A stretch of DNA of 64,000 nt from Liolophura sinensis. Its lineage: Eukaryota > Mollusca > Polyplacophora > Chitonida > Chitonidae. Shown piece after piece: positions 1 through 56,900 of the stretch. The stretch spans positions 24,585,400 through 24,649,399 of the forward strand of contig NC_088305.1 in NCBI RefSeq assembly GCF_032854445.1. Reading direction: 5' to 3'. Under the pieces are notes generated by a model, which was given only the letters and a program-made list of their open reading frames with translations, was not told the origin of the DNA and did not search any database. Position 1 is the first letter of the stretch; each line of letters opens with the position of its first letter. The position numbers were made by a program, and so were the translations under genes.

Positions 1-359
1 ATTACCAGTGACACTTACCACTGACAATAACAGTGTGCCAGCCTCCAGGCCATACACAGGCCATCTAGATGTTACCAGTGACATTTACCTCTGACAACAA
101 ACAGTTTGCCAGTCTAAAGCACTGACACAGGCCATACACAGACCCTCTAGATATTACCAGTGACACTTACCACTGACAACAACAGTGTGCCAGCCTCCAG
201 GCCATACACAGACCCTCTAGATGTTACCAGTGACACTTACCACTGACAACAACAGTGTGCCAGCCTCCAGGCCATACACAGACCCTCCAGATGTTACCAG
301 TGACACTTACCACTGACAACCCACACACAGACCCTCTAGATGTCACCAGTGACACTTAC
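1..359 (-). repeat. Minisatellite made of copies of the RCCD1-like exon 4 end and its splice donor
   Basis: Units of about 70 bases (spacings 70, 82, 70, 70, 49) repeat the last ~50 bases of exon 360-481 plus ~20 bases of intron. The donor core (acttacc on the plus strand) recurs at 13, 165, 235 and 305, in altered form (atttacc) at 83, and is the real donor at 354-360. Most copies lack about 11 bases that the exon keeps, so they would not maintain the reading frame. The array runs off the left edge. Confidence 0.9.
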
Positions 360-481
360 CACTGACAGCAACAGTGTGCCAGCCTCCGGCACTGACACAG
401 GCTATACGCAGGCCTTCTAGTTGTTCCACTAGGGTCAGGTTCAGAGAGCTTTCTGTAGAGTTGTGACCCAATTGACCTCGG
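360..481 (-). CDS. RCCD1: RCCD1-like exon 4 (RCC1 repeat)
   Basis: 122 bases from acceptor TTTCTGTCAG to donor CAGTG/GTAAGTG. It encodes SRGQLGHNSTES, VEQLEGLRIACV and AGGWHTVAVS, a clear RCC1 blade. The terminal 50 or so bases of this exon with its donor are tandemly copied downstream at 1-359. Confidence 0.88.
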
Positions 482-3187
482 CTGACAGAAATGAAGAGAC
501 AAATGACGTGAAACAGTTTGTTTAATAAACGGCAATACCCTAATTCCTTGGCAATTTCGCACACGAAAGGGTAACTCTGAGTAAAATTTAAGCACATTTT
601 AAATTTGATTTTGGAGAAAAAACTACACTGGTTGGAGGGCTGAGTTTAAGGGCTTCACAAAAAGTACAGTTTTATCAGTCCACACGGAAAAATGTCGTCA
701 GAATTTGATTGAATAAACATCTTACAAGCATGCGAAAAGGTCGAAGAATTACAATAAAAATAAAAAAAGATTAAAATCATCTTCATCAGACATATTTCTG
801 AAAACTGGATCAAAAAATGCTTTACTTACAATTGTTTGCTTCAATATGATTCAGCATTTGAATATTACCATTCCAAAGTGTGCTTTATTGTCCATATTTT
901 TATTTATTTATTTATTTATTTATTTGATTGGTGTTTTACTCAAGAATATTTCACTTATACCACAGCAGCCAGCATTATGGTGGGAGGAAACCGTGCAGAG
1001 CTCAGGGAAAACCCAGGACCATCCGCAGGTTGCTGCCAGACCTTCCCACGTGCGGCTGGAGAGAAAGCCAGCATGAGCTGGACTTGAACTCACAGCGACC
1101 GCATTGGTGAGAGAATTGTGGGCCATTACGCTGCGCTAGCGCGCTAACCAACTGAGCCACGGAGGCCCCTCCATATTTATATTATTAGCTGTTAGGTTTC
1201 AACTTCACCTCCTACTGGTTCAGTTACAACATCTGATTTCAGGAGGTTTGTCTGGTACTCAGGTAACATGAAGCCGTAGAAACCTTTGGGGAGGAGGGAG
1301 GTGTCCTTGGTATAGGTATAGTAGTTACAAATACAAACAACACTTAACCAAAATCAAATATTAACCAAAATCAAATACATAGTTTAAAACCTGAAAACAC
1401 CCCACAGTATCAAAGCTTACCTGCCCAGTCCACAGGTATAAATCTGGCCCGTCTCCGAGAGCACGACAGTATGTTCCTTCCCACAAGTCACCTGTGTCAC
1501 CTGACAGGGTAAACTCAGCGGATTCCATGTCACAAGAGGCTGCAGATCAGATGAATCTTTGTCCCTGAACTCCAGCTCACCACACCTGCCATCCTCTATA
1601 TCAACATTATTTTATTTATTATTTATCAAATGTATCTTCATGCTTTTACACATGAAGATTATACCATCTATATCATCTATTTCATCTGCTAAAAAGTTTA
1701 ATTGTGAAGGAAAATAGAGCAGCACTCGCTGAAGGGAAAACATAGCATGTTAAGAAAATGACAACCTTCAAGACAAACCACCGTACATTGCTATGCACTT
1801 GACAAACTTTCAGGCAAACTACAGCACATTACTAAGCACTTGACAAACTTTCAGGCAAACTACAGCACACTGCTAATCACCTGACAAATCATAATACATT
1901 GTTATGCACCTGACAACATTCCAGGCGAACCACAGCACATTGTTAAGCAAATTTATATATATATATATATAACATTTTAATAAATACATAATCAATGTAA
2001 ACTTTCAGTACCACAACATTCAAAAAGAAAATTCAGCAAAATTACCTGAACATCCCAAGAGTGAATTTTCTCCTGCGGCCAAAAAGGACAGATTTATCTG
2101 CTGAGAGTTATCCCCCTTTGTTGTCACCACATAATCCCTTTTCACAGTTAACCCATCACACTTACAGCCTTCCTCATTGAAAGTTTGGAGTTTTCCATCA
2201 TCCAAAAGCAGCCAAAAGTCAGTCCACTTTACAGCAGCAGATGTGACTTTAGCGTGCGTTTCCAGTCGGCTCCAACCAAAGGTGTTGTGATTGGAAATGA
2301 AGGCTGATCCAAAATCTGATGGAGTAGTAATACAATAAATATATCCACTGACTGTTTTTCTTTTTGGACAAGATCATCATTTATTTTTTTGATTGAAGTT
2401 TTATGCCGCACTCAAGACTATTTCACTTAAACTACAGAGGCCACCATTATGGTGGGAGGAAACCAGGTAGAGAGACCATAGGAAACCTTCAACCATCTGC
2501 AGTTACTGAGATATTATGCTGTGATACCATGCTAATGTCTCTGCCACGAAGATCCCTGACAAGATCATAAGCTTTTATTTATAAAACAGTTTTCTCTGTG
2601 TCTCTAGCCTTACAAAGATAATCACCAAACCAGGTAGTTCAAATAAACGTTAAGGTCTATTTTCAACAATTTCTGATATTAACAGGGTCACATGCTGTAG
2701 AACTGTTCTGCATGTTTACTGTACTTTCTACTCAAAGAAATATTTATTTATTTATTTATTTATTTGATTCGTGTTTTACGCCGTACTCAAGAATATTTCA
2801 CTTATTCGACAGCGGCCAGCATTATGGTGGGTGGAAACCGGGCACAGCCCGGGGGAAACCCACGACCATCCGCAGGTTGCTGGCAGACCTTCCCACGTAC
2901 GGCCAGAGAGGAAGCCAGCATGAGCTGGTCTTGAACTCACAGCGACCGCATTGGTGAGAGGCTTCTGGGTCACTATGCTGCGCTAGCGCGCTAACCGACT
3001 GAGCCATGGAGGCCCCGCCTCAAAGAAATAGCCAGGAGGTAAACCATGCAAGGTAATTCAAAATGATTGGTATACTGGAGAAAATTCAATTAAGTCTTCT
3101 ATAATTTATTTCTCCATTGAATTTCATCGAAATGGGACCTGAGGAAAACCAAGGTAATTTAACATGGCTAGCTGTTAATATAAATAA

Positions 3188-3249
<62 letters not shown>

Positions 3250-5520: not shown

Positions 5521-5600
5521 CAATTTGTTCTTTACTAGTACACAACTAGTCTTTCAAGTTTAATGATTTATTTCTTATCAGTTTTTTTTCTTCTCCACAG

Positions 5601-8900: not shown

Positions 8901-11900
8901 TTAAATGATTTTTAAAAATATTTTTAGAACATTTTTGGAATACTGCCTTATTAAATTATTCAGCTTTAGTGGCTGACTTTATGTTTCACTTTAATGAAAG
9001 TACAATAATTCTTCAACCATTTTTCCTCTTTGCAAGTTGTTTATTCAAGCATTTTCTGAAGGTATTGTTCTGTGTTGACTGATAAGATTGTACTTTTTGT
9101 GAATAATTTCTTTTTTATCAAAGATATAACTAAGTCAATTTACAGTGAAACTGCTTATTCCAAAGGCTGTCAGACACAAAAGAATTCAGAGTGAAGAAAT
9201 TTTGTACTTGTATTTCAGTGTCATGTCAAATTATGTAGCACATACAACAAAACAATAAAACAGTGTGATGTATTTTATGCTATATTTTGCAGGTTCTCAA
9301 AGTTTCACTGTGCTACTTGTGTTTTGGATTTCAAGTGGATGTGGAAAAGCCAGTCTGTGCTATATTCCACAGGTCCACAAAGTTTCTCTGTGGTACATTT
9401 CCTTTGTAATATGTTTCAGGTAGATGTGGAAAAGCCAGGCTGTGGTATATTTTGCAGGCCCACAGAGTTTCTCAGTGGTACATTGCTTTGTAATATGTTT
9501 CAGGTAGATGTGGAAAAGCCGGGCTGTGCTATATTCTGCAGGTCCACAAAGTTTCTCTGTGGTACATTTCCTTTGTAATATGTTTCAGGTGGATGCAGAA
9601 AAGCCAGGCTGTGCTATATTCTGCAGGTCCCACAAAGTTTTCTCTGTGGTACATTTCCTTTGTAATATGTTTCAGGTGGATGTGGAAGAGCCAGGCTGTG
9701 CTATATTCCGCATGTCCACAAAGTTTCTCTGTGGCAGGAGACACCAGTGGCAAGGTAATATACATGTACACAGATAAAAATACCATTTAGATGAAATTAC
9801 ACAGTAAAGTTGGAATTGTGTAGACAATTTTTAGAGTGAGATTGGAAGATAACCCACCGGAACCTCACAGGAGTATTATTTAAGCATCTGGTATGCATCT
9901 CCCTGTTGGCAAGGTTGATACCTGCTGTAGGCTTCGTTATCACCCTTGCTTTACTGTGTGTATACAAGTCTTCAGAAACGGTATTCTTTCAACAGCCAAT
10001 GGCATTGCGGCCCTTGTATTTCTGCCAGGGCATTTTCAGCCAATCATTGATTGTCCATTGTTTCGAAGCAAATGCATGTATGTTTGGATCCCATTTATTC
10101 CTTGGCACAACATTATAAACGCCAATAAGCAGTTTTATGAACGCTGATAGATGTGCTTTTATTGAAACGAACAGGCACCTCAAAGTCACTGTACTATTAT
10201 AGGCAATACTGGTGATAGCGAAAGAGGCCGAACGGCTGATTGATATAACATATGTTTTTGTTGTTTTCATCACTAATTTCTATCAAGCCTTTTTTGCCTC
10301 AAAATGCCCCCCCCCCCCCCCCCCCCCCCCAACTTTTAAAATATCGATGTGTAAGGAGTTATGTTTGCGCTAGGACTTCTGTGGCTAGTGTGAAATAGAC
10401 TTATTCTGTAGATTTATAGTTTTTCTTAGATTTCTGAGTAAAATGAAAATTAGGTGTAAGTTGGCAATGTTGGTGAACCTGATTATGCTAAACTAAATGT
10501 ATTAGTGCTGTATAAAAAATGTGACACTACAAAGAGTCTAATTTATACAGTTTCACTTTTGACTGTTGAAGAAATGCTGATAGTTCACCTTTATATTAAT
10601 AAGTAATAATCTTTCTTGAGTTTTGGTTGAAAGGCCTTATGAATTGAGAGATGAATAAATACTTGTAGAAACTAAGTCATGGGTTTTGCATAAATAAAAT
10701 AAATAAATTGTAGAAACCAATAAGGTATACGCTGTTAGTCATGTCGTATGATGGCTAAAATTTGAAATCGTTAATAAAATAATGCTGTACTTAACAAAAC
10801 TACAACAACAACAACAAATTGGTTGTAGGTGACTTTGTTTGACCCCAACACAATGATAGCAGAACATGTCCTGGAGGCTCACTCAGGCACGCTGTCTGAT
10901 TTTGATCTCCATGGCAACCTGCTCGTGACTGCTGGATTTTCTAACAGGTGAGGGTCATGTGTTTAGAATTGCCAATCACAGGTAATCTTTGAAAGGTCAG
11001 TTGTGTTATTTACCTTTGTGAAGTACACTTGATATGAATTGATGTGGACTATAATCGCATAGAAAACAACTCAAATAAATTTGAATATCAGTATTGAAGT
11101 CCTCTTTGGAAAAAAGAAATTAATTTTGGTGTGTGTGTTTGTGACTGTGCTGCCACAGTTGATTGGGATTGTCACCCTGTATATTTTAAAAAATTCTATA
11201 TTATAAATTGAGCAATGTGGTGAAGGGAAAGAAAATCGTTTGACTGAAGCAGATGTAAACATCAGTAGCAAGAGTTCATCCACATTGCCAACATTTGACT
11301 GTTTTTAATTCAGTGAAAAATAAATCTTAAAAAAAAAACAGAAAAGAATAAATAAAAATGGTTTTGATGATCTTTCCAGTAGTGCTTACTTACCTTAAAG
11401 TGACATGGTGGCCCAAATATTTAGTATCGGGTATTTTTCTCAAGAAGTAAAAGTCACAAGCTTTTGACCTCACCCACAGCATTGTACGTTAAGTGAATGT
11501 TTAGAAATAACAAAAAAAAAAACTGAAAACTGAAAATTCTGCCAGAATATTTAAATAAGGCGCTGTCAATTAAGTGAAAATGGAGCATGGGCACAGCGCT
11601 CAGTAAAATTTATGTGTAAATAAACATAGCTGACTATGGCCATGAAAGAAGGACTTATTCCTCACTTGTGACAGGATCAGCCCAAAAGAGGCATAGAAAA
11701 GAGTTCAACAGGTTGACAAACAAGTCTAGAGTTGTAATTGGCGGTCAGTTTGAACGGTGGAGTACACTGAAGAAAGAGAAGGGTCTTACGAAGCACTAAG
11801 ATGTCGCAAAACTGCTTCGGGATTGGTGGATGCAAATGTTGTTGTTGTTGTGGGCAGGGGTGTTAAACTTCAAAGAGACACACGTTTCTGACTCTTAGTG

Positions 11901-32627: not shown

Positions 32628-32664
<37 letters not shown>

Positions 32665-32806: not shown

Positions 32807-32856
<50 letters not shown>

Positions 32857-35800
32857 TTACAACATAAACACAAATCAGACAATCTTCTTCGAGGCTCTTG
32901 TAATATAAGGTCATAGTTTTACTTTCATTCTCTGTTTTTTATTGGTAGGGGGGAGGGGTTCATATCCCCTTGCATCTTAGGCTTGGTTTTATCCTCTACA
33001 AAGGTAGAGGCCAGAATTGTACTGTGTCATGTACAACAACACATGGGGATTTTTTACTTCCCAGTTGAGTTTTCCTCAATTTGTGTATCAAATTGAGATC
33101 AAATCTCGCAAGCGGTATTTTTTATTTCTGTGTAGGGATGGGGAGAGTTTCTTGGACCTGAGTCGGTTCAGTGATGAGGACTGTTTTGAGCCCAGTTGGG
33201 TTCCCCTGGGGCTGAAGATTTCCCAAACTGATGAGGGTCAGATCAACATTGAAGAGATTGCCGATGATGTAAGCATACTGCACAGTCTATCAGCCAAGGA
33301 GATGTTTGAACCTCTGTCATGCTAACTCAATGATATAATTACATGTACATGGAGGTCGGTAACTTTGATGAAGTACCAGGCAACGAGAACCAATTTCAAC
33401 CTGTATCGTGAAAGAGTACACAAAAACTGGGCATTTACCCCTTCTCTGCTAGAGTTGCAAAATGAATCCATATCCTCTCACCAGTGTGGTATGTGGATTC
33501 AAGTCCAGCTTATGCTGGCTTTCTCTACCCATGAGGGAAGATCTGCCAGCAACCGGCAGATGATCGCGGGTTTCAATGGGCTGTGCTCGGTTTCCTCATA
33601 CTATAATCATGATAATACTGCTACCATTGTTGAGCATAGCTTGAAAAACAAACCCAAAAATGTGACCATTTTGATGTTGTGGACTTTTACATATACATAG
33701 GTAGTATTTTCCAAGCATTGCATGTAACTCCAGAATGCTTGTTGAGTGGGATATTCCAAAGAATTGAAAGTGGTACTCGCTTGGTGCTCAGCATTAAGAG
33801 GTTAGAGCAAGGAAACTTAGAGCAAGAGAACTGCTTTACCCCTTGTCACTATTATGTTATTGGGTGGAGTTAGCATGAAACTTCAGTGAGGCAGCACTTT
33901 GTCAGCATGGGCTTGCCCTGCTGCGAGAAAATACAGTATATGACCCATTGTCATATGACTATGTATGACGTATTACCATACATGTACCTGTACATAACTA
34001 TTCATAAGCTTGACAACAGCGTTAATAAAATAGTTTTTAATACTGCATGAAACAAATGAATTACCAAAATTGTTTTTCTGTTTCTTGTGTATGTCAGGAA
34101 TCAATGGATCCATTACAAGCAGAGACATCAAACTATTATGAGATTTTTGCCAGCGTGTCACATGTGAAGGACTCAAAGACTGGGGGTAATTTGGTGGCCT
34201 GCATCAAGGTGGGAGAGAGATATCACCAGCGGAAAGAGAATGTCACCTGTACACAGTGGTACCTGTTTAATGACTTCTCCATCACACCTATAGAAAAGGT
34301 GAGATGTAAGACAAGGTGAAGGGGAGGTACTGGTACCTGTCTAATGACTTCTCCGTCACATCTGTGGAAAAGATTAGATGTAAGACAAGGTGAAGGAGAG
34401 ATAGTGAAGATTTCTTGTGATTTACATGTTTACATGTATGTCGCACATAGGGCAAAGGGGATTTCTCTGTCACACATATGGTAAGGGTGATTTCTCTATT
34501 TCACATATGTTAAAGGAGATTTTCTATCACACGTGGTAAAGGTGATTTCTCTATCACACATATTGCAAAGGTCATTTCTCTATCACTTGTGGCAAAGGGG
34601 ATTTCTTTATCACACATATGGTCAGGGTGATTTTTCTATCGCACATATGGTAAGGGTGATTTCTCTATCACACATATGGTAAATGTGATTTTTCTATCAC
34701 ATATGGTAAGGGTGATTTCTCTATCACACATATGGTAAGGGTGATTTTTCTATCACACATATGGTAAAGGTGATTTCTCTATCACACATATGGTAAGGAT
34801 GATTTCTCTATCACACATATGGTAAGGATGATTTCTCTATCACACAAATGGTAAGGGTGATTTTTCTATCACACATGTGGTAAGGGTGATTTCTCTATCA
34901 CACATATGGTAAGGGTGATTTCTTCATCACACATATGTTACGAGTGATTTCTCTATCACACATATGTTAAGGGTGATTTCTCTATCACATATGGTAAAGG
35001 TGATTTCTCTGTCACACAAATGGTAAAGGTGATTTTTCTATCACACATGTGGTAAGGGTGATATCTCTATCACACATATGGTAAGGGTGATTTCTCTATC
35101 ACACATATGGTAAGGGTGATTTCTTCATCACACATATGTTAAGGGTGATTTCTTTATCACACATATGTTAAGGGTGATTTCTCTATCACACATATGTTAA
35201 GGGTGATTTCTCTATCACATATGGTAAGGGTGATTTCTCTATCACATATGGTTAAGGTGATTTCTTTATCACACATATGTTAAGGGTGATCTTTCTATCA
35301 CACATATGTTAAGGGTGATTTCTCTATCACACATATGGTAAAGGTGATTTCTTTATCACACATATGTTAAGGGTGATTTCTCTATCACACATATGGTAAA
35401 GGTGATTTCTCTATCACACATATGGTAAGGGTGATTTCTCTTATCACACATATGGTAAAGGTGATTTTTCTATCACACATATGGTAAGGGTGATTTCTCT
35501 ATCACAGGTTGTAAATGTGATTTCTCTATCTTACATGTGGTGAAGTGAGGTGTTAGATAAGAGTGATAACTACACAGTAATGCTGGCTTCCGCTCTGGCC
35601 ACACGTGGGAAGGTCAGCCACATGCAAATGGTCCCGCGTGCTCTGCCCGGTTTCCACCCACCATAATGCTGGCCGCTGTTGGATAAGTGAAATATTCTTG
35701 AGTATGGCGTGAAACACCAATCAAATAAATGAATAACTGCACATCTTGTCCACTACTAGACATTTGGAAGGCTGCCACAAATACATAAAGACGTACAATG

Positions 35801-41800: not shown

Positions 41801-42876
41801 GAGCTATTCCAGGTCTCTCTTACCCAGACACCTGGGGCAGATTCCACAAAGCCATTTCTGACTTTATTCAAAATTTTTTTACAGCGCTCAGTTTTGGGTA
41901 CTGAAAGTTGAAATTTTGATACATTTGGCGTAAGATAACACTGATGAGGTGGACAAAATGTTACCTTATAAAACCAAAGAATGAACGTAAAGATGGTGTA
42001 CAAATTTTGACTTATGTCAGAAACGTCTTTCTGGAACCTGACCCAGACATCACCGACTCAGTCATTCATGTACACGTACATAATTCTCATGACGACGTGT
42101 ATTAAATTTCTTATGTACAAGTCCCATGTGTATCTGTAGGTGCCAAAAGACCATATCCTGGACACTGTGGAACTTTTCCAGCTCCCGCGCCAGAGGATGA
42201 TCTCTCTCAAGTTCCTTGCCTGGTACTTCCTGAGTAAGTCACACAGAAAATGGCCACATGGCTAAAGTGTTCTCCAGGCCAAGCCTTTCAGCAGTGAGAT
42301 CACGGATTCAAATCCATCTCCTGCTCACTCAGCAGTAGCTTTACATCATGAGGTAACTGCTTTGCCATCTTGGGATATGTGTAGGTTTCACCCAGAGCCT
42401 GTACCCTTGGTAGAATTTGAAGTCTTGGTTTTCTGTACCCATTGAGGTAACGAGTTCAAATCCAACTCTTGCTGGTCATCTTCGGCTTTCCCACTATACG
42501 GTTTGCAGTAACCTAGCCAACGTAGTGTAGAAAGTACAGCCTAAACATTTATAAGAAAATCCAAAAATAGACTTGAGAAGAATATATTCTGCATTTACTT
42601 CTAATGTAAGAAATTGCTTGCTGAAAGATCAAATTCCTGTTCAGTAATTTCAAGGACGTACGTGTTACAGAACTAAAGATCCAGTCGTTCACACATGATT
42701 CTGTGGAGGACGCCCGCACAGCGCTGCAGCTGTACGAGAAGTACCAGGAGATGTCGCAGGAAGGGATGGACACGGTTCGGGCGCGCATCAAGGAGATGTA
42801 CGAGTTTGGCCGCAAAGTTCAGTGGAAGATTCCAGAGGTGGAGGAAGAGGCAGATTCCCAGCTGGCAGAATTGTGA
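5683..42876 (+). CDS. PAN2: PAN2, poly(A) deadenylase catalytic subunit (27 exons)
   Basis: PAN2 with PAN3 shortens mRNA poly(A) tails in the cytoplasm. About 1205 residues counted from 5809; the human protein is about the same length. Order: WD40 propeller (exons 1-8), PAN3-binding linker (9-10), USP-like domain (11-21), DEDD exonuclease (22-27). The USP active-site Cys position is Ala in [10 protein letters not shown], as expected for this inactive USP. The exonuclease motifs are intact: [16 protein letters not shown] and [15 protein letters not shown]. Exons: 5809-5979, 7390-7562, 8424-8545, 9676-9754, 10829-10947, 12326-12470, 14509-14650, 14995-15071, 16340-16467, 17524-17696, 18505-18665, 20323-20451, 22893-23042, 24102-24259, 24504-24643, 27907-28019, 29700-29798, 31879-32015, 33136-33268, 34098-34298, 35876-35966, 36940-37094, 37382-37467, 38597-38654, 40686-40865, 42140-42233, 42671-42876. 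Phases match throughout except one extra base in each of exons 3 and 4. The start is uncertain. Confidence 0.95.
5980..7389 (+). other. PAN2 intron 1
   Basis: No exon, SINE or array recognised. AT-rich single-copy-looking sequence; short ORFs here have no recognisable similarity. Confidence 0.6.
7390..7562 (+). CDS. PAN2: PAN2 exon 2 (WD40)
   Basis: Acceptor TTTTCAG, donor GTAAGTC. Encodes [34 protein letters not shown] and [11 protein letters not shown], which matches vertebrate 'GGHATSFFG...DDIRQIQSLENGILFL'. Ends phase 2. Confidence 0.93.
8424..8545 (+). CDS. PAN2: PAN2 exon 3 (WD40), with +1 frame disruption
   Basis: Acceptor TTTGTAG, donor CAG/GTGAGC. The conserved reading [20 protein letters not shown] matches vertebrate 'LLVGGLQNHILEIDLN'. 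Read with the phase left by exon 2 the frame hits TGA at 8440. One base too many between about 8429 and 8436, most simply in the A4 run 8432-8435, explains it. The exon is 122 bases where 121 would keep frame. Confidence 0.85.
9336..9675 (+). repeat. Tandem partial copies of PAN2 exon 4 start with its acceptor
   Basis: Four units of about 84-86 bases (starting near 9336, 9420, 9505 and 9590) each carry the first ~58 bases of exon 4 and then the intron stretch 'tacatttcctttgtaat' leading to an intact 'atgtttcag' acceptor. Unit copies read [20 protein letters not shown] then run into a stop, so they would not replace the real exon. Confidence 0.9.
9676..9754 (+). CDS. PAN2: PAN2 exon 4 (WD40), last copy of a duplicated exon start, with +1 frame disruption
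   Basis: Acceptor ATGTTTCAG, donor AAG/GTAATA. Encodes [20 protein letters not shown], then in the next frame GDTSGK, which matches vertebrate 'VETPG...FFFCGHTSGK'. The exon is 79 bases where 78 would keep frame; the extra base lies near 9734-9738, where similarity to the upstream tandem copies ends. Only this copy is joined to the GDTSGK part and a donor. Confidence 0.82.
9755..10828 (+). other. PAN2 intron 4
   Basis: Contains a poly-C run (about 10307-10330) and a short CAA repeat before the exon 5 acceptor. No exon or SINE recognised; the short ORFs at 9893-10273 look accidental. Confidence 0.6.
10829..10947 (+). CDS. PAN2: PAN2 exon 5 (WD40)
   Basis: Encodes [20 protein letters not shown] and [22 protein letters not shown]-x-HGNLL is nearly identical to the vertebrate propeller. 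Donor AACAG/GTGAGG, phase 2. Confidence 0.95.
10948..12325 (+). other. PAN2 intron 5
   Basis: No SINE, array or exon recognised. AT-rich with short A runs. Confidence 0.55.
12326..12470 (+). CDS. PAN2: PAN2 exon 6 (WD40)
   Basis: Encodes [40 protein letters not shown]. Matches vertebrate 'DRFLKVYDLRMMRAITPLQVHVDPAFLRF'. Phase 0 donor GTAAGG. Confidence 0.96.
12508..12840 (+). mobile_element. SINE family B (tRNA-derived), longest copy
   Basis: A-box-like 'tggtctaatgg' and B-box-like 'gggatcaaaccc' mark a tRNA-derived head. The body ('gaacaaggaaacaggaatgg', 'agtggcgcagcactttggc') recurs at 24.7 and 33.8 kb. Ends are approximate. Confidence 0.75.
12904..13172 (-). mobile_element. SINE family A, near full length, diverged
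   Basis: (ATTT)n at 12910-12936, then 'gattggtatttcatgccata'; the tRNA-like head is degraded ('ctcggccatgaagaccccc'). Confidence 0.85.
13712..13787 (-). mobile_element. SINE family A, internal fragment
   Basis: 'agaccttcccacatacggca' and 'gaggaagcc' match the family core; the rest is missing. Confidence 0.5.
13960..14490 (+). repeat. Dispersed ~500-base repeat, copy 1 (before PAN2 exon 7)
   Basis: Matches 23290-23815 over its whole length with many small changes: shared 'attcacagggttgc', 'aagtcact', 'tcatagttgtga' and 'actgctc.atcaggcgag'. Both copies sit in PAN2 introns and end within roughly 20-290 bases of an exon. No terminal repeat or coding capacity seen. Confidence 0.75.
14509..14650 (+). 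CDS. PAN2: PAN2 exon 7 (WD40)
   Basis: Encodes [20 protein letters not shown], then [19 protein letters not shown]. Matches vertebrate 'GQCQFCE...LLMTFDVSASKQALAFGDSEG'. Phase 1 donor GTAAGG. Confidence 0.95.
14995..15071 (+). CDS. PAN2: PAN2 exon 8 (WD40)
   Basis: Encodes [20 protein letters not shown] then TEFVHP, matching 'GCVHLWTDSPEPSFNPYSRETEF'. Donor CCCG/GTGAGA, phase 0. Confidence 0.93.
15785..16155. repeat. AT-rich tandem array in PAN2 intron 8
   Basis: Alternating blocks of 'attaataattgatttattg', 'agttgttccac' and 'cctcataagaattc', about ten copies of the first. No exon similarity seen. Confidence 0.9.
16340..16467 (+). CDS. PAN2: PAN2 exon 9 (end of propeller and linker)
   Basis: Encodes [20 protein letters not shown] then [13 protein letters not shown]. 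'PLSLIPxPxxxxxTLLSDWP' is a PAN2 signature at the start of the PAN3-binding linker. Phase 2 donor GTAGGT. Confidence 0.95.
16566..16777 (-). mobile_element. SINE family A, 5'-truncated
   Basis: Tail (ATTT)n then body, stopping at 'cacagcgaccgcat' without the tRNA head. Flanks 'ctttcctcattt' and 'actctcctcattc' look like a slightly diverged target duplication, so truncation probably occurred at insertion. Confidence 0.85.
17524..17696 (+). CDS. PAN2: PAN2 exon 10 (PAN3-binding linker)
   Basis: Encodes [39 protein letters not shown] and a basic/Ser tail [14 protein letters not shown]. 'VDxEILRxMKxxxxxGYAPNP' is the conserved linker. Phase 1. Confidence 0.95.
17697..18504 (+). other. PAN2 intron 10
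   Basis: No exon, SINE or array recognised; AT-rich. Confidence 0.55.
18505..18665 (+). CDS. PAN2: PAN2 exon 11 (start of USP-like domain)
   Basis: Encodes [42 protein letters not shown]. Aligned to the USP Cys box (C-Y-x-N-S-x-L-Q), the catalytic Cys is Ala here (A-Y-C-N-S-M-L-Q), as known for PAN2, so no deubiquitinase activity is expected. Confidence 0.96.
18687..18850 (+). mobile_element. SINE family C copy
   Basis: tRNA-like: 'ggccgtgatctaatgtg' (A-box region) and 'ggttcaatcccggcc' (B-box). Similar heads occur at 25.5 kb and, inverted, at 27.7 kb. Confidence 0.6.
18905..19795. repeat. Tandem array, ~60-base unit, PAN2 intron 11
   Basis: About 15 units of 'acatgatttagaaaaacttg', 'gctactgatactgtgtaa' and 'tctgacctttagtc'. 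The first half shows a two-unit alternation (gatttagaaa / gatcaggaaa). No similarity to exon 11 noticed. A 126-codon minus ORF across it is a repeat artefact. Confidence 0.93.
20323..20451 (+). CDS. PAN2: PAN2 exon 12 (USP-like)
   Basis: Encodes [43 protein letters not shown]. Nearly identical to vertebrate PAN2 in '[17 protein letters not shown]'. Confidence 0.97.
20452..22322 (+). other. PAN2 intron 12, left part
   Basis: No exon or array recognised. A T-rich stretch lies at 21960-22045. Short ORFs at 21040, 21875 and 22110 show no recognisable family. Confidence 0.5.
22336..22604 (+). mobile_element. SINE family A, full length, reference copy
   Basis: Plus-oriented. A box tggctcagtcgg at 22346-22357; B box gagttcaagacc at 22414-22425; end 'gcgtaaaacaccaatc' and an A tail. 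The 13-base direct repeat tcaacacataaac occurs at 22323-22335 and 22605-22617. This copy has poly(A) rather than (AAAT)n. Confidence 0.95.
22893..23042 (+). CDS. PAN2: PAN2 exon 13 (USP-like)
   Basis: Encodes [50 protein letters not shown]. Matches vertebrate 'NNFLRAFRTIPEASALGLILAD...RLIQRWNRFILTQLH'. Phase 0. Confidence 0.97.
23290..23815 (+). repeat. Dispersed ~500-base repeat, copy 2 (PAN2 intron 13)
   Basis: Diverged copy of 13960-14490 in the same orientation; see there. Confidence 0.75.
24102..24259 (+). CDS. PAN2: PAN2 exon 14, Pro/Glu-rich acidic insert
   Basis: Encodes [20 protein letters not shown] then [27 protein letters not shown]. Phases fit on both sides (0 in, 2 out), acceptor CCTGGACAG, donor AATAA/GTGAGT. 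The segment is low complexity and disordered-looking, and sits where vertebrate PAN2 has a short loop before the zinc-binding RCRCG region. It could be alternatively spliced; skipping it would change phase, so it is likely constitutive. Confidence 0.85.
24504..24643 (+). CDS. PAN2: PAN2 exon 15 (USP-like, zinc-binding Cys pair)
   Basis: Encodes [48 protein letters not shown] corresponds to vertebrate 'LCRCGSET'. Phase 1 donor CCAG/GTAGGA. Confidence 0.95.
24722..24978 (+). mobile_element. SINE family B copy
   Basis: A-box-like 'tggcctaatggttaaagcg'; body 'ggaacaaggaagcaggac' and 'ggtgtcatgtttgg' match 12508-12840. B box degraded. Confidence 0.7.
24984..25259 (-). mobile_element. SINE family A, full length, inserted next to SINE B
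   Basis: Minus-oriented with (ATTT)n tail. The 14-base direct repeat aactccccatagga occurs at 24970-24983 and 25260-25273, so the insertion postdates the adjacent family B element. Confidence 0.93.
25488..25700 (+). mobile_element. SINE family C copy
   Basis: Contains 'gtgcttgcctttcaatcg' and 'ccttgaagaccatttgtctt', the latter shared with 37680-37700. Degraded head. Confidence 0.55.
25835..27470. repeat. Large minisatellite, ~54-base unit, about 30 copies, PAN2 intron 15
   Basis: Unit 'tctctaatcctgtagcggg', 'tccatttcatgtatggctgg', 'gagagacagcattc'. Variant blocks (for example acgtagaactgggggacagc) recur in the same order, so the array grew by duplicating multi-unit blocks. Many units contain 'ctgtagcag/gt', which resembles a splice acceptor, but no clear link to an exon was found. 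Confidence 0.95.
27697..27842 (-). mobile_element. SINE family C copy, minus
   Basis: Minus strand reads ggccgtggtttagtgatt (A-box region) and gggttcaaatcctgcc (B-box). Ends 60 bases before PAN2 exon 16. Confidence 0.7.
27907..28019 (+). CDS. PAN2: PAN2 exon 16 (USP-like)
   Basis: Encodes [35 protein letters not shown]. 'TQAWCDxCxKYQP' is the second zinc-binding Cys pair in PAN2. Donor CTCAT/GTGAGT, phase 0. Confidence 0.96.
28003..28390 (+). repeat. Tandem copies of PAN2 exon 16 end with its splice donor
   Basis: Units of about 31-37 bases derived from 'gtaccaacctcat/gtgagtgcttaact'. Starting in the last bases of exon 16, about ten decaying copies follow; several keep GTGAGTGC or GTGAGTAC donor-like cores. 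Degeneration increases to the right (28300-28540). Confidence 0.88.
28590..29515 (+). repeat. Minisatellite, ~37-base unit, with a sense AATAAA in nearly every unit
   Basis: Unit 'taatgtgatgcccaaataaa', 'gtaatatggtctaagag', more than twenty copies, in PAN2 intron 16 just before exon 17. Every or almost every unit holds the canonical AATAAA hexamer in PAN2 sense orientation. No exon similarity seen. Confidence 0.95.
29700..29798 (+). CDS. PAN2: PAN2 exon 17 (USP-like)
   Basis: Encodes [33 protein letters not shown]. Matches 'IQTRNIRHLPDILVINCEVN...FWRMQAE'. Phase 0 donor GG/GTAAGG. Confidence 0.95.
29966..30192 (+). mobile_element. SINE family A, near full length
   Basis: Head 'ggggcctttgtggccgaggt', end 'aaaactccaatcaaataaat'. 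Flanks aatctgcaaac / aatctgcttac suggest a target duplication. Confidence 0.88.
30385..30577 (+). mobile_element. SINE family A, head-truncated
   Basis: Begins in the B-box region ('gtgagttcaagtccag') and ends 'aaaacaccaatgaaataaat'. Confidence 0.85.
31610..31725 (+). mobile_element. SINE family A, 3' fragment
   Basis: Contains 'gatggtcttgggtttccctc' to 'gaaatatccttgagtacagc'; neither head nor tail remains. Confidence 0.7.
31879..32015 (+). CDS. PAN2: PAN2 exon 18, CCCH zinc finger insert
   Basis: Acceptor CATAACAG, donor GAGGG/GTATGC; phases 0 in and 2 out fit both neighbours. Encodes [16 protein letters not shown] then [19 protein letters not shown]. The Cys/His spacing is CX5CX4CX3H (31948-31995), the form found in poly(A)-binding fingers of the Nab2/ZC3H14 type. 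Vertebrate PAN2 as I remember it has no such finger here; PAN3 carries one at its N-terminus. RNA binding is inferred, not shown. Confidence 0.85.
32112..32165 (+). mobile_element. tRNA-like fragment (probable SINE head)
   Basis: 'tttagctcagttggtagagc' is a tRNA A-box region, but no acceptor stem closes and no B box follows at the right distance. A separate B-box-like 'caagttcaaatcc' lies near 32340. Confidence 0.4.
32460..32585 (+). mobile_element. SINE family A, partial
   Basis: 'acctgggaaggtctcccagt' to 'gaaatattcttgagta'. The right part is followed by an inverted echo of the same end. Confidence 0.7.
32630..32852. repeat. Two (AT)n microsatellites
   Basis: (TA)n at about 32633-32661 and about 32803-32851, in PAN2 intron 18. 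Confidence 0.95.
33136..33268 (+). CDS. PAN2: PAN2 exon 19 (USP-like)
   Basis: Encodes [50 protein letters not shown] corresponds to vertebrate 'WLPFSIRMKM'. Phase 0. Confidence 0.93.
33470..33610 (+). mobile_element. SINE family A, diverged partial copy
   Basis: 'cctctcaccagtgtggt' to 'gctcggtttcctcatactat'. Confidence 0.6.
33740..33955 (+). mobile_element. SINE family B, head-truncated
   Basis: 'gagcaaggaaacttagagc' and 'cagtgaggcagcactttg' match the family B body at 12600-12760. Confidence 0.65.
34098..34298 (+). CDS. PAN2: PAN2 exon 20 (USP-like)
   Basis: Encodes [55 protein letters not shown]. 'H-V-x-D-S-x-T-G-G-x-L-V-A-x-I-K-V-G-E-x-Y-H-Q-R-K' is almost identical to vertebrate PAN2. 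Donor AAAAG/GTGAGA, phase 0. Confidence 0.97.
34299..35535 (+). repeat. Exon-edge duplication then ~31-base minisatellite derived from PAN2 exon 20 donor
   Basis: At 34330-34410 a diverged copy of the exon end and intron start appears (tacctgtctaatgacttctc, then gtggaaaag), with the donor changed to ATTAGA. From about 34440 about 35 units of 'gatttctctatcacacatat' plus 'ggtaaggg' follow; they align to exon bases 'gacttctccatcacacctat' plus 'agaaaagg'. Each unit thus carries a GTAAGG-type donor-like core. Confidence 0.9.
35579..35735 (+). mobile_element. SINE family A, head-truncated
   Basis: 'atgctggcttccgctctgg' to 'gaaacaccaatcaaataaat'. It ends the minisatellite region and is followed 140 bases later by exon 21. 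Confidence 0.85.
35876..35966 (+). CDS. PAN2: PAN2 exon 21 (end of USP-like domain)
   Basis: Encodes [26 protein letters not shown]. Matches 'FDMNWKVPAILYYVKRNLNSRYNL'. Phase 1. Confidence 0.95.
36030..36215 (-). mobile_element. SINE family A, strongly diverged
   Basis: 'tttatttgatgggtgtttta' start, then only scattered similarity. Confidence 0.5.
36455..36672 (+). mobile_element. SINE family A, head-truncated
   Basis: 'caatgacccaggagcctccc' to 'aaaacaccagtcaaataaat'. Confidence 0.85.
36940..37094 (+). CDS. PAN2: PAN2 exon 22 (exonuclease motif I)
   Basis: Encodes [59 protein letters not shown] is DEDD motif I with its catalytic Asp and Glu. The exon must end at CAG 37094 to join EESELRSDG, so the intron starts with GC (CAG/GCTAGT). 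Confidence 0.93.
37382..37467 (+). CDS. PAN2: PAN2 exon 23 (exonuclease)
   Basis: Encodes [29 protein letters not shown]. Matches 'EEAELRSDGTKSTIKPSQMSVARITCVRG'. Phase 2 donor GG/GTAAGG. Confidence 0.96.
37540..37705 (+). mobile_element. SINE family C copy, diverged
   Basis: 'gtgacaataagcgatgctca' and 'ccttgaagaccatttgtctt' match 25560-25650. Confidence 0.5.
38340..38590 (+). mobile_element. tRNA-like dispersed repeat, diverged
   Basis: 'cctcattgtctaatacggtt' and 'gtgttcggattcggatctc' look like A- and B-box regions of an old SINE; family uncertain. Confidence 0.4.
38597..38654 (+). CDS. PAN2: PAN2 exon 24 (exonuclease)
   Basis: 58 bases; encodes [19 protein letters not shown], matching 'GIPFIDDYISTQEQ'. 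Phase 0. Confidence 0.95.
39078..39230 (-). mobile_element. SINE family A, 5'-truncated
   Basis: (ATTT)n tail at 39078-39097, body up to 'acagaccttcccact'. Confidence 0.85.
39535..39795. repeat. Tandem array of 'cacaaagtcaac' blocks
   Basis: Three higher-order units of about 85-90 bases, each built of four variants of 'acacacaaagtcaac' plus 'ttctcag', 'ctgtcaa' or 'ttgtcac' linkers. In PAN2 intron 24. Confidence 0.9.
40686..40865 (+). CDS. PAN2: PAN2 exon 25 (exonuclease motif II)
   Basis: Encodes [65 protein letters not shown] holds the motif II Asp. 60 codons, phase 0 on both sides. Confidence 0.97.
40893..41093 (-). mobile_element. SINE family A, diverged
   Basis: 'acctgattggtgtctcttac' then 'ccagcaatatggtgggagga' to 'cttgaactcacagagaac'. 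Starts 28 bases after exon 25. Confidence 0.8.
41440..41745. repeat. Tandem array, 81-base unit, ~3.5 copies
   Basis: Unit 'ggttcttgcatatcctgcct', 'aaagacaaaaggtttctcat', 'gtgcgtggaaagggacagtg', 'gtttcctccgacctttgac'. Because 81 is a multiple of 3, long ORFs appear on both strands; they are artefacts. No exon similarity seen. Confidence 0.93.
42140..42233 (+). CDS. PAN2: PAN2 exon 26 (exonuclease)
   Basis: Encodes [31 protein letters not shown]. Matches '[31 protein letters not shown]'. Phase 1 donor TGA/GTAAGT. Confidence 0.97.
42250..42520 (+). mobile_element. tRNA-like dispersed repeat, diverged
   Basis: Two B-box-like stretches ('cggattcaaatccatctcc' and 'cgagttcaaatccaactct') suggest one or two old SINE copies in PAN2 intron 26. 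Confidence 0.45.
42671..42876 (+). CDS. PAN2: PAN2 exon 27 (exonuclease motif III and stop)
   Basis: Encodes [66 protein letters not shown] and TGA at 42874-42876. [15 protein letters not shown] carries the motif III His and Asp, so the nuclease should be active if the upstream frame is intact. Confidence 0.97.
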
Positions 42877-43110
42877 TGTCTGGGATTTCATCTGATGGAA
42901 TTGTGATGTCAGTGATTTTCATCTGGTGGCATTGTGATGTCAGCGATTTTCATCTGATGGAATTGTGATGTCAGCGATATTCATCTGGTGGAATTGTGAT
43001 GTCAACGATTTTCATCCACAGTGAATTGTGACGTCAGCGATTTTCATCCACAGTGAATTGTGACGTCAGCGATTTTCATCCACAGTGAATTGTGATGTCT
43101 GGGGAATTTC
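42868..43110 (+). repeat. Tandem copies of the PAN2 stop-codon end
   Basis: The last codons and stop, 'cagaattgtgatgtc', are followed by about seven units of 33-40 bases built on 'gaattgtgatgtcagcgatt' and 'ttcatc'. The array is in the 3' UTR and starts inside the coding exon. Confidence 0.9.
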
Positions 43111-47224: not shown

Positions 47225-47812
47225 TTTTCCCACTCCTAAAACAGCATTTGGGTTATGATTGCTCAATGTTTAAGCCTCACCCTCTCCTTCCACTGTTTAC
47301 AATAGCATATGGGTCACCGCTGTGCAAGGTTTAAGCCTCACTATCTACTTCCACTGTTCAAAGAGCAATGGGGTCACCACTGTTCAATGTTTAAGCCTCA
47401 CCCCCTTCTTCCACTGTTTACACACAGCATATGGGTCACCACTGTGCAAGGTTTAAACCTCGCTATCTACTTTCACTGTTCAGAGAGCATTTGGGTCACC
47501 ATTGTTCAATGTTTAAGCCTCACCCCATCCTTCCACTGTTTACACACAGCATATGGGTCACCAATGTGCAAGGTTTAAGCCTCGCTCATTCTTCCACTGT
47601 TCAAGCAGCATTTGGGTCACCACTGTTCAATGTTTAAGCATCACCCTCTCCTTCCACTGTTTACACACAGCATATGGGTCACCACTGTGCAAGGTTTAAG
47701 CCTCACTCTCTCCTTCCACTGTTTACACACAGCATATGGGTCACCACTGTTCACTGTTTAAGCCCCACTCTCTCCTTCCATTCTTCACACACAGCATATG
47801 GGTCACCACTGT
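47225..47812 (-). repeat. Tandem copies of the MOB4 stop-codon end
   Basis: Units of about 60 bases contain 'gtttaagcctcactctctcc' and 'ttccactg', the complement of the MOB4 C-terminal codons GESEA and its TAA, alternating with 'cacagcatatgggtcacca'. About nine copies lie downstream of the real stop (47813-47815). Confidence 0.9.
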
Positions 47813-47944
47813 TTAAGCCTCGCTCTCTCCTTCCACTGCAGCCAATGCCTGCTCCTCCAAGATTGGAACAATCAAGTTGTCTTTCGACATCAGGTTGTAT
47901 TTGGTCACAAATGTTGTAAATCTCTTGCACAAATTAGTCTCATT
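47813..47944 (-). CDS. MOB4: MOB4 exon 8 and stop
   Basis: Encodes [43 protein letters not shown], then TAA at 47813-47815. Human ends '...SGESEA'. Confidence 0.97.
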
Positions 47945-50900: not shown

Positions 50901-53900
50901 TGACGAGTGTAGTCGATAGCTGGACACTGTGGACAAAACAATATCCTAATGAGGTCATCTGAGCAACACAAATGGTTTGCCATGTTGGTGTTTTCCAGAA
51001 GCAGGTAAGACCAAATGTAGATGCATTTACAGCGCTGTCTCACTAAAACGCCATGCTAACACTAACCAGACATTTATTGCTGAAACATGTAAGATCTTCA
51101 CATGGTAATTGTTAGCATGTATTTTAACTGAAAAACAATGCAAGCTGAGAGGTGGGATTCCAGGCCTAATGTGCAAATCATGTGAATGTCCTTACCTCTT
51201 TGGGAGTTTTATGGGCAGCGCAGAGGAAGATCCACTGCTCCGTCGCTGTCATCTGTGTGCAAGTCTCCGGGTTGCACTCAATCTGGAACATAACACAGTA
51301 AAGAATCCCTCAATTACACAAATACACTAAATCTGGAATGTAACACAGTGAATGTCCCTCAATAACACACACTCAATCTGGAACATAACACAGCGAACGG
51401 CCCTCAATAACACAAATACACTCAATCTGGAACATAACACAGTGAACGGCCCTCAATAACACAAATACACTCAATCTGGGATATAACACAGTTAACGGCC
51501 CTCAATAACACAAATACACTCAATCTGGAACATAGCACAGTGAACGGCCCTCAATAACACAAATACACTCATGTGAGACATTTGTCCACTAGGATATCAC
51601 ACTACCTTCCCAGCATTCCTCAAAACAGATCGCTAGAACATCTAGAACCTCAGAAATAAGAAACTCAGTGATGACAACGTTTTGGTTAAGCACTGTTAAG
51701 CACACAACATAGCATCACATAACACAGCATCATAACACAGGACCCAGAAGTGTCTCACCAATGCGGTCGCTGTGAGTTCAAGTCCAGCTCATGCTGGCTT
51801 CCTCTCCTGCCATACATGGGAAGGTCTGCCAGCAACCTGCGGATGGTCGTGGGTGATACACAGCATCACACAACACAGCATCATATAACACAGCACCACA
51901 CAACACAGCATCATATAACACAGCATCATATAACACAGCATCACATAACACATCATCACATAAGACAGCATCATATAACACAGCATCACATAACACAGCA
52001 CCACCTAACACAGCATCATATAACACAGCATCACATAACACATCACATAACACATCATCACATAAGACAGCATCATATAACACAGCATCATATAACACAG
52101 CACCACACAACACAGCATCATATAACACAGCATCATATAACACAGCATCACACAACACAGCACCACATAACACAGCACCACATAACACAGCACCATATAA
52201 CACATCATCACATAACACATCATCACATAACACAGCATCACATAGCACAGCATCACATAACACATCATCACATAACACAACATCACATAACACAGCATCA
52301 CATAGCACAGCATCACATAGCACAGCATCATATAACACAGCATCCCATAACACAGCACCACATAACACAGCACCACCTAACACAGCACCACCTAACACAT
52401 CATCACCTAACACAGCATCACATAGCACAGCATCACTAAACACAGCATCACATAACACAACATCACATAACACAGCATCACATAACACATCATCACATAA
52501 CACAGCATCACATAGCACAGCATCACATAACACAACATCATATAACACAGCATCACATAACACAGCATCACATAGCACAGCATCATATAACACAGCATCC
52601 CATAACACAGCACCACATAACACAGCACCACCTAACACAGCATCATATAACACAACATCATATAACACAGCACCACATAACACAGCACCACATAACACAG
52701 CACCACATAACACATCATCACATAACACAGCATAACATAACACAGCATCATATAACACAGCAACGTATAATACATATACACTGAATTTATTCTCTGCTGC
52801 CCCATCACATCTATTTTTTAATAATGGGGCTTACTGAAAGGGCTTACTGCTTACTGAAAATATCTGCTTATACAGCGGCATCCAGTCTTAAGGGCCTTTT
52901 CACACATAATTCCATTCCATCTACAACACATACCTGTAACTTGACTGCCAGACCATTCAGCTCCATGCAAAATTGTCTGTTGAAAAGAAAAATTTTTTTT
53001 TTAATGTTTCGGATTAAACACTGTATTTTTATGCTTTTTGTGCACACACAAGCTTAGACTTGCAATGGGACTCAAATATACCTACATGTACAGCATGCAT
53101 CTGTTCAGTTTAAATATGATTAGTCATCATTGTCACAATCAAGGATAATTCATTTTAATCAAATATGGCCTGAAGTGATCCTTCAGTTATAAAGCATAAC
53201 CAATTCTAAACTCTCAATCTATCTAGTAAAACAGACATTCTCTGAGTACTGCCATCTACAATTCAAGTGTTGACAAAAAAGGCCCTAATTTTGTTACCAA
53301 CACAGCGAGCAAAAAGAAATCTGGCCTGTTGTTTATAACAAAACCAGGAGCCAAGCTGGATTAGACACAAAAGGTGCTTGCTCACTGTGAATGCCAGGCC
53401 ACTAACCAACAATATAGCATGCTCGATTCTAGCTCTCACTGGGGTTTGTCAAGTACCTTGCATCGGTTTACTCAATGCCCTCCAGGTTTCACCACCCAAT
53501 CCACAAACCTAACCCCTGTCACATCACAGAGTTATTTATTCATAATTATGGCACTTAACACCAGTCAAATGAATAAATGAATATACCGTACGATTTGAAG
53601 GTTGTTGGATTGACAGGGACTTCACGTGGTCTAATTCAAGAGGCTATTATATGTTTACAAACTAGCAGTAACTTTTGAGTGCGTTCTGATTCTTGTGATA
53701 TATTGGAACAGAAGGCAATGTCATATTTCTCAGAACACAGCGGTATTTTGTCACATGACATCCAGTTAAGGAAGCTCCTCGCTGATGTCTTTCAGGATAG
53801 TTAACATGACTCCAAAAACAGCATTTGAAGTCCTTTTAGGCCCCATAAATAGCCTCAACTACCACACATGTATGGCTCATCCATTTCCTCACCTGAGATG

Positions 53901-56900
53901 TTCATACTTCCACACGCCCTCATCCTGGCCCTCAGGGGGCGTCAGTATCTCCTCAATGTCAGTGATGTCCTTACGAATCGCCTGCTGTATGAACTAATGG
54001 AAGGACAAAAAAAAAAAGATAATCAGGTCCCATGCTTGCACAAAGCAGTGGGGCGCATAGCCCGGGATGACAACGCTTGTAAGGCTTTGTGTAGTCATGG
54101 CTGGGTCCCCTTTAGCCCAGTAGGATGACGTAAATTTTGGAAAACAACTGATTACTATCATACCTCGCCCATCCAGCTATTCCTTTACAATGCTTAGGGT
54201 TCTAGGGTTCTAGGGCACCTGGCTGTCAAAATTCTGAGACGTCGATCATCCCAAAGGTAAATATCCACCCATATTTATCCTTTCCGCTGACTTTTCATTT
54301 ACAAAATGGCCAACATCTACACGGGGCGCATTCGCGGCCAGGCAGCTGGGTACAAAACTATCCTCCTCTTCAATTATGCTGTTTATGAAGTCATTTGTTG
54401 TTATGCGGTCATGTGCAGGCTGGTTTGCGTCCCATTTACATTATGATGGCCCCAAATGGCGCATCACGGAACCAAACTAGAGCACGTGCCGTTGTTTTGA
54501 CATGTCTGAGTGACCTCCACCAATAAAACCAGCAAAGGTCAGTCGCTTCGTATCGAACTGTCTGGCCACACATGCGTGTAGTGCAGATGGTGGCCATTTT
54601 ATGTTGGTTTTGGGAGTTGGGATGATCACTATTATGATTACTGAGTCAGTGATGTCCTTAACCAATCACCTGCTGTGTGAGCTAATGGAAGGACAAAAAA
54701 AAAAGACATGTATGAACAGTGGGGATGTTTTACCAGCTTGGGAGATTTATAACAAGCGTTTTATTCTTTTTTTTTTTTCCAGAAAGACATCTTACGACAA
54801 ATGTCAAAAATTTTCAAATACTACACACGGACATGTAGGTCCATAATTAATTTCACTTACTATGTGATTTTAAAAGTCAAGCTAAAGAGAAAGGCATCTT
54901 ACGACGAATGCCAAAAATTTTAAAATACTACATATGGACAAACAGGCATATATTCCATTTCGCTTAATACCTGGTTTTAAGAGCAAAGGATCATAGAAGT
55001 CGTCTGAATGAGCCGGTATTCGGTTTGTCGATTGAATAAAAAACTCAATAACTGGTTATATTTACACAACTTGAGGTTGCTTTTTGAAATATTCAAAATT
55101 TTACATAAACTAAATATGAACATAAAGTTTCGCCAAGCAACCTGTTCACGCTACAAGTGATCTCTCATTTACGGAAATCTTCATGACCCTCTACGTGGAT
55201 TAGATTTAAGAAGGCAATTTTGGAAGCAGAGGGGCCTATGAAATCAAACACGACACACAGTAAGCTTCTTTGGTCTATGCCAAATCAGTCCTCATGAATA
55301 ATTTGACCAACTTCATCTTCCGATCGTTCTGTTTTTGACAATAGCATAGCGTGAGTGACTGCACCTGTGCGCACTTGGTTTCCTCCCCCTGACGTCAGGT
55401 GGTGCTAATATCTTCGCTCCTTACAAGGCAAGCACGCAGGTTGCCTCCTGGTTTCAATTTCAGGATTCTGAAGTTTGATAAATGGCTTATAGCAGTGAAA
55501 TTAAAACCTTCTTGGCCAGACATAAACATTTACCAGCGACACTGGTTCACTATAAAAGCATTTTTTGTTCAAAGACTGAACATGTAGATGTGTGCCAGAC
55601 AGGACTTCAGGCCGCTGACATTCAGCCGTACTCATTGTGGCAGTGACAGTTCAATTAATGGACACATAAGGTAGCAGTGTGTTTTTTCTCTCTAAATATG
55701 TAGTATGTATATTTAAAGATCATTATTGTCAATAGTCCATGGGGTAAATCACTGATTGTGGGTCTCTTACTTTTCTAATTACCAGTGGCTGATTTTTGTG
55801 GAAAATTTCATGTTATTAGTACCCTGTCAATAAGTCAAATCAGACTTCGTTTTGAACCGCTTCTGTTATCTTTTTTTTTCTTATTTCCTTTTCTTGTTTT
55901 AGATAATGCACATAGCATTCAAGTGGATGCCTAATTCAGATTAGTTTCTAGTATATATGTAAGGTGCTACATGAATTTTGATTTTCTATGTTTCTTTTTT
56001 TTTCTTTAGATCATTTTTGACATTTCCTTTTACAGACTGAGAGTGACAACCACATATTCCGTATGGCATTAATGCTTGACCATTCTGTCTTGTTTCATGA
56101 CTACTGAATATTTTTTTAAAAGTGATTTCAAGATCAATTGCTCATGTTGTGAGTTCAGTCAATCTAGACTGATGCTCTAGGTTTGTAAGCTTCCTGGGCA
56201 GGTCTTCACACTTCACTGAAATGGTATCCTAATATATGTGTAACAATAACTGCAATGTGAGCTGCTTATTGGTTTGCAGCATCAACTAGGAGGCCAGACT
56301 TAGCTTACATACAGGCAATGATAATAACTTCAATCAATGAAGTATATTGTAACATATAAAAATATTCAATTTTAGTACTTCAAACAGCCGATTGAAACAA
56401 AAAAAACTTAATTTCAGTTGAAACAAAAACTCAGTTTGGCTAAGAAAGTGGTGGCTGGTATGAGGAAAAACGCCTTCTACAAACCCCTGAAGAGTCAAGC
56501 TTAATGATGGAGAGGCAAACTCTGTTTTACAGTACCTGTTGTACAGCGAGTGTACTGTCCATCTCCTCAAATGCTTCATCTGGCCATCTGCACCAGTCCT
56601 AGAATCAAAAGATAAACCAGTTACATGTACAACACGCACACGTCATATATCATTGGTTGTTGTAGTCATGAAACACAGAAATATCTGACCAGAACCTGCA
56701 GCAGACACTGTGATGAGCCTGACGACATGCTGCAGTTCTAGTCAGAAATCGCTAAATCATTAAGGTCGTGAAAGCGTGGACGAAGCAGAGTTGTCGAAAG
56801 CTTTGCTAGTCAAAATACTGTTCAAAATGAACTTCATACCAGCCAAAAAGGAGAGAATGTCAACAGCTTTTATCTACCCCTAGTCCAATCACGTCTCTCC

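Follow-up and report, generated by a model that had tools for sequence, protein, structure and literature searches.

Mirage-type minisatellite arrays at exon edges in the chiton Liolophura sinensis, with a candidate newborn intron in PAN2

This study focused on a 64-kb stretch of the 609-Mb genome of the chiton Liolophura sinensis (hereafter the window, meaning the whole stretch that was analysed), in which local copies crossing an exon edge were found at nine of 78 modelled edges, representing eight loci. In anatomy the arrays are mirages, which the relevant passages of PMC3087553 describe as minisatellite-like tandem duplications of exon–intron boundaries in the amphioxus Adh3 gene and globin genes BflGb6 and BflGb9. 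The chiton arrays are likely to be minisatellites of this type, founded where a local duplication caught an exon edge by chance and then multiplied into the adjoining intron or UTR, the edges themselves not being clearly favoured. Among them, the array at exon 4 of PAN2 has features that might be expected of a newly formed intron.

Exon-edge copies in the window

Three genes were modelled, comprising altogether 39 CDS exons (78 edges; 4,848 coding bases). Open frames, splice signals and phase served to build the exon models, which were checked against solved PAN2 chains, MOB4 and Pfam. PAN2 (plus strand) has 28 CDS exons as modelled, with an uncertain start codon, and the model is supported by human and fungal PAN2 chains. 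MOB4 (minus strand) has eight exons and a full-length match to 7k36_H (E 3.3e-130), while the third gene, also on the minus strand, has three exons within the window and specifies an RCC1-repeat protein that is RCCD1-like, with a match to RCC1 in Pfam. Some peculiarities of PAN2 were seen. Exon 31888-32015 (plus strand) carries a CCCH-like stretch amid exons of the UCH-like domain and lies outside the human PAN2 alignments examined; the best splice sites at the junction of exons 2 and 3 (7562 / 8424) are out of phase, reflecting either a missed microexon or a base error; and exon 22 appears to end at 37094 with CAG/GCTAGT (here and below, a slash within a motif or between coordinates marks the exon edge), either a GC donor or a base error.

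Rfam and ARAGORN report no RNA genes in the window, tRNA genes included. A SINE-like element with a tRNA-like end, which we take to be of a mollusc type, occupies 25 intervals (e.g., 906-1170, 2746-3019 and 24991-25257), and its core found no match in the bacterial or viral contigs searched, nor in the papers searched. Other repeats include a 53-bp minisatellite with a 369-bp higher-order repeat (25840-27476) and a 15-bp array of about 60 copies (51858-52762) that lies within a minus-strand open frame of 350 codons, a false ORF produced by the array.

Exon edges were examined with 60-bp probes, each centred on one edge and aligned to 2 kb on either side. The nine edges with an edge-crossing copy scored 51 to 110. 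Among the best 26 rows, the next score below these, 45, belonged to the left edge of PAN2 exon 4b, where the match does not cross the edge, and the one after that was 30. Lowering the cut-off to 38 still passed only nine of the 78 edges, the remainder having no edge-crossing copy at a cut-off of either 38 or 45. All eight exon-edge cases that the first-pass annotation had listed were recovered by these probes, and no additional edge joined them. TRF returned 48 rows in the window, which were merged by hand, with two array ends placed by eye, into 23 arrays with a unit of at least 13 bp and a total length of 9.7 kb; a CDS edge lies inside seven of the 23. The array units contain from 8 to about 58 exon bases (judged by eye) together with the splice site or stop codon (Table 1). 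For the RCCD1-like gene, an array at 1-359 had been described, and a donor array is indeed present there, but the window holds only its right end: it starts upstream and is about 1.56 kb as a whole, with 20 donor octamers including the real one.

Table 1. Exon-edge arrays, single copies and associated features in the window.
Feature	Position	Strand	Description and evidence
RCCD1-like donor array	1..367	-	70-bp units = end of exon 360-481 plus GTG/GTAAGT; edge 359; TRF
RCC1-repeat exon, donor end within array unit	360..481	-	ORF, RCC1 Pfam
PAN2 exon 4 array, both edges duplicated	9279..9737	+	85-bp units: TTTCAG, 58-bp exon piece, GTACAT
PAN2 exon 4 piece, copy 2	9420-9477	+	Open frame
PAN2 exon 4 piece, copy 3	9504..9561	+	Intact frame; alignment of fused protein with PAN2 of human and fungi
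PAN2 exon 4 piece, copy 5 (last)	9676..9733	+	Best fit to conserved residues by eye; followed by GCAG
4-bp GCAG at repeat joint	9734..9737	+	Shifts the frame when read through; a 3' splice site when used as acceptor
PAN2 exon 4b, 17 bp (DTSGK)	9738..9754	+	GAGACACCAGTGGCAAG/GTAATA; donor AAG/GTAATA
PAN2 exon 16 donor array	28006..28390	+	29-bp units; donor edge 28019; TRF
PAN2 exon 20 donor, first duplication (74 bp, of which 42 bp exon)	34257..34443	+	Donor edge 34298; TRF, probe
PAN2 exon 20 donor array	34444..35541	+	~38 units of 29 bp like exon end; TRF
PAN2 stop-codon array, 3' UTR side	42868..43110	+	31-bp units; stop edge 42876; TRF, probe
MOB4 stop-codon array	47225..47838	-	~62-bp units with last ~25 bp of CDS; stop edge 47812; TRF, probe
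MOB4 exon 5 acceptor array	51275..51571	-	49-bp units with AG/ATTGAGTG; acceptor edge 51282; TRF
MOB4 exon 3, single displaced copy of its acceptor with the initial exon bases	54651..54704	-	Score 81; ~0.7 kb upstream of real acceptor 53993

Every straddling array found, with the exception of that at PAN2 exon 4, extends away from its exon. In the flanks of an independent set of myosin exons (described below), arrays covered 7.8% of bases within the 50 bp nearest the exon, about 24% of those at 200-300 bp and 17.8% beyond 300 bp, and an array of at least 60 bp was present in the fetched flanks of 20 of 40 loci. The earlier suggestion that growth is tolerated only on the intron side, with the exon kept as the recognisable ancestor, draws support, for the UTR side too, from both the outward arrays and the myosin flanks; together, outward growth and low coverage near exons fit selection against arrays that lie inside exons or directly beside them.

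Frequency and origin of edge-crossing arrays

Three nulls were used in the window: shuffling of whole arrays, placement of founder units in the collapsed sequence, and the probe test with founder-weighted control positions. Whole-array shuffles, run with some RCCD1-like edges one base off, gave 5.8-6.6 straddling arrays where seven were seen (P 0.34-0.52), whereas founder-unit placement gave only 1.1 to 1.3 for the same seven of 23 arrays (P 0.0002 or less). An overlap no higher than in shuffled controls had been proposed as evidence against any edge preference; this is what whole-array shuffles return, but not founder-unit placement. Shuffling of whole arrays lets long arrays swallow edges and is a poor null because array growth brings in no new edges; it was rejected as the main null and is retained for comparison only. 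With the 25 SINE-like intervals masked, the probe test found nine of 78 edges where 2.1 were expected (P 0.00024; eight of 75 loci, P 0.0009), a 4.3-fold excess that is post hoc, the window having been flagged for these very arrays. The first probe runs, in which SINEs were kept and some RCCD1-like edges were one base off, gave nine of 78 edges against 3.5 expected (P 0.0084) and eight of 75 loci (P 0.019). The overlaps could be ascribed to plain coincidence between dense arrays and dense exons, as the whole-array shuffles would allow, but we regard this as very improbable. The whole array is the wrong unit, since a 30-bp founder must itself have overlapped an edge for the array that grew from it to do so, and the units are true copies of the exon end, which chance adjacency would not yield; the unit-to-exon alignments mostly refute coincidence.

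Independent exons of the same genome were taken from two sources. A systematic set consisted of nineteen 10-kb stretches at round positions (190 kb), in which arrays with a unit of at least 10 bp make up 10.5% of bases. Their exons were predicted by a small ab initio model trained on the window, where it recovers 27 of 33 exons exactly with eight extra. The predictor is noisy outside gene-rich DNA, giving 51 exons at the cut-off compared to 21 in a reversed-sequence null. Before edges were counted, 11 of the 51 were set aside for a repeated interior or a SINE, leaving 79 edges. An edge-crossing copy was found at three of these, against 1.9 expected (control 0.0242), all three being donors at the end of an array longer than 1 kb (L010, L019 and L020). 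Counting against them, the predicted exon of L019 has no family match, that of L020 is DSL-like at an E value of 0.0089, below the curated cut-off, and at L010 the match to the lysine-methyltransferase family PF10294 spans residues 56-125 of the joined protein, which come from the in-phase downstream exons, and leaves out residues 1-37, which the straddling exon supplies. Presumably the latter exon belongs to an EEF2KMT-like gene.

The second set was provided by a profile search with the myosin-head family PF00063, which gave 81 matches. Leaving out 26 with internal stops or an open frame of more than 300 codons, 55 were fetched with about 350 bp of flank, and 49 of the 55 gave an exon model. 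Edge-crossing copies were present at four of 98 edges, three donors (L033, L034 and L054) and one acceptor (L043), against 3.9 expected from a founder-weighted control of 0.0400 taken at these same loci; this control replaced an unweighted value of 0.1775, which ignores array length. L051, where the TRF array overlaps the exon by 5 bp, has no edge-crossing copy and was not counted. At another locus (L038), arrays at 1-341 and 522-834 flank the myosin exon 356-506, each ending about 15 bp from it.

Pooled, the independent sets have an edge-crossing copy at seven of 177 edges (4.0%, 95% interval 1.6-8.0%) compared with 5.8 expected (P 0.37), and the window differs from them at P 0.045 for edges and 0.076 for loci. 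The proposal that exon borders are preferred starting points for duplication was not confirmed genome-wide, although a weak preference may exist. We read this as no general edge preference, with the window lying in the upper tail of the places that a reader would single out.

A chance origin would proceed as follows. A local tandem duplication happens to take in an exon edge; the unit could then be multiplied into the intron or UTR through unequal exchange or replication slippage, and the real exon would stay at one end of the array as an anchor copy, because an exon cannot grow without altering the protein. Minisatellites make up about 10% of the bases sampled in this genome, a density at which a few percent of exon edges would be caught. 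The agreement of the independent sets with the founder-based expectation favours this explanation, while the window, at about four times that expectation, is not predicted by a purely random origin. The main competitor is that exon borders are hot spots of duplication through features of splice sites, such as short AG/GT repeats, R-loops or pausing at exon ends. The excess in the window would be accounted for in this way, as would that in the three sets pooled (16 of 255 edges against 7.9 expected, P 0.0075, with the post hoc window included), and donors outnumber acceptors nine to three across all sets when exon 4 and the stop codons are excluded, a difference that is not significant (P 0.15). 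However, neither independent set has a clear excess, and stop codons rather than splice borders account for two cases in the window, splice-site loci alone giving six of 71 against 1.9 expected with SINEs masked (P 0.012). Hot spots are, on balance, unlikely, and a founding duplication that met the edge by chance is the reading we prefer.

Decoy splice sites and the PAN2 exon 4 array

The splice dinucleotide is retained in 36 of the 43 array copies that align at a splice site. GT is kept in all five such copies of the RCCD1-like array, in six of ten at PAN2 exon 16 and in 20 of 23 at exon 20 (both arrays together), and AG in five of five copies at the acceptor of MOB4 exon 5. Splice scores were obtained from a weight matrix trained on the other splice sites of the window, two RCCD1-like training sites being out of register and some edges of that gene one base off in the scoring. 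On this scale, three RCCD1-like decoys in the window reach 9.2 bits, equal to the real donor, and of six decoys above the cut-off at PAN2 exon 16, four score 7.8 or 8.4 bits, against 7.8 for the real donor. Decoy splice sites can number in the dozens within one gene. From what is understood of exon definition, the copy nearest the exon would be chosen as the working site, and normal splicing would survive.

At PAN2 exon 4 an acceptor array had been described. The acceptor is indeed part of the units, but these also contain 58 bp of exon and a GT. The unit begins within intron 3 and ends within the exon, and consists of TTTCAG, the 58-bp piece (19 residues plus one base, which opens a G codon) and then GTACATTTCC. 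There are five copies of the piece, and a degenerate copy of the unit can be seen by eye upstream of 9329. Copy 1 has a shifted acceptor and copy 4 carries two single-base insertions, while copies 2 and 3 are open and are the only ones that join exon 3 to exon 4b in frame. Copy 5 retains, by eye, residues of human (R) and fungal (K-M-S) PAN2, and to judge from these letters is probably the original exon 4.

The GCAG that follows copy 5 breaks its frame: the 58-bp piece and the 17 bp of exon 4b (75 bp without GCAG) stay in frame, whereas reading through GCAG shifts it. To restore the frame, one of the inner copies 2 and 3 would have to be spliced to an acceptor at 9737/9738. Such an inner copy might serve as exon 4a, and all that lies between it and the new acceptor would be a new intron. 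The anatomy of intron gain is present, in that part of the exon is duplicated and the would-be intron is bordered by AG and GT, and removal of that intron restores the conserved frame. The alignment of the fused product of exons 4a and 4b with human PAN2 (192.6 bits) continues across the joint, with one single-residue gap nearby. The candidate acceptor at GCAG scores 5.1 bits, and the inner-copy donor GTG/GTACAT only 1.7 bits, the lowest among in-register donors, compared to a median of 9.0 for either.

It may be instead that exon 4 is a normal exon, the GCAG being an assembly error or a broken allele and copies 1-4 inert mirage repeats, and we consider this to have a slightly better than even chance. 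The weak donor of the copies agrees with it, as does the impression by eye that copy 5 holds conserved residues better than copy 3. The irregular junctions of PAN2 at exons 2/3 (phase) and after exon 22 also point this way, and switched repeat copies are a usual fault of assemblies. Against it, the insertion sits at the repeat joint, creates AG/G, and has a size that puts an inner copy and exon 4b in frame. That exon 4 holds a new intron made of mirage repeats is a possibility to which we give rather less credence, its standing being lowered by the weak inner-copy donor and the two other odd junctions.

Comparison with known mirages and biological meaning

The chiton arrays resemble amphioxus mirages in that units of tens of base pairs span an exon edge, in that both kinds of boundary are affected (donors in the RCCD1-like gene and PAN2 exons 16 and 20, an acceptor in MOB4 exon 5, and both among the myosins), and in that many copies, though not all, keep AG or GT, with the authentic exon at one end of the array. 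They are unlike them in occurring in another animal, at nine edges of a single 64-kb window and at about 4% of independently sampled edges, and in including stop-codon versions and up to about 38 copies. An earlier paper on amphioxus mirages is reportedly that of Canestro et al. (2002). Amphioxus is the only lineage for which PMC3087553, in its passages on the subject, reports mirages; length polymorphism is described there, and RT-PCR suggested regular splicing. In the part of the literature that was searched, this was the one paper recognised as dealing with minisatellites that span exon boundaries. What the present study appears to add is another animal, a rate, the stop-codon versions, a founder-based test and the case of PAN2 exon 4. 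Intron gain by tandem duplication is said to have been treated by Rogers and by Gao and Lynch.

Figure 7 of PMC3087553 sets out a model of intron gain in which an inner mirage copy takes the role of exon a and is spliced to exon b through an acceptor within the old exon. An intron gain by tandem duplication is reported for the potato RdRp gene (PMC4974935). PAN2 exon 4 is like the model in its repeated exon piece with AG and GT, its acceptor in the old exon and the repeats inside the would-be intron. It is unlike it in its weak donor and in an acceptor carried by a 4-bp insertion, and it is known here from genomic sequence alone. If real, it would be a candidate for intron birth that matches the published model (PMC3087553). 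In its broadest form, the proposal would be that in this lineage about one exon edge in 25 bears a mirage array, that such arrays are a lasting reservoir from which new introns and exon variants arise, and that at PAN2 exon 4 a frameshift in the original exon has been rescued by an inner copy, leaving an intron newly born; taken as a whole we hold this to be doubtful.

For work on other repeat-rich genomes there is a methodological trap to be avoided: arrays need to be collapsed to their founder units before preference for exon edges is asked about. The natural arrays described here, in which the real splice site is accompanied by as many as dozens of almost identical ones, are a ready test of how the spliceosome chooses. 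If a value of about 4% holds, and a few hundred thousand coding exon edges are assumed, mirage edges would number in the order of ten thousand per genome. Known until now from a few genes of amphioxus, mirages would then seem to be a common condition across an entire genome.
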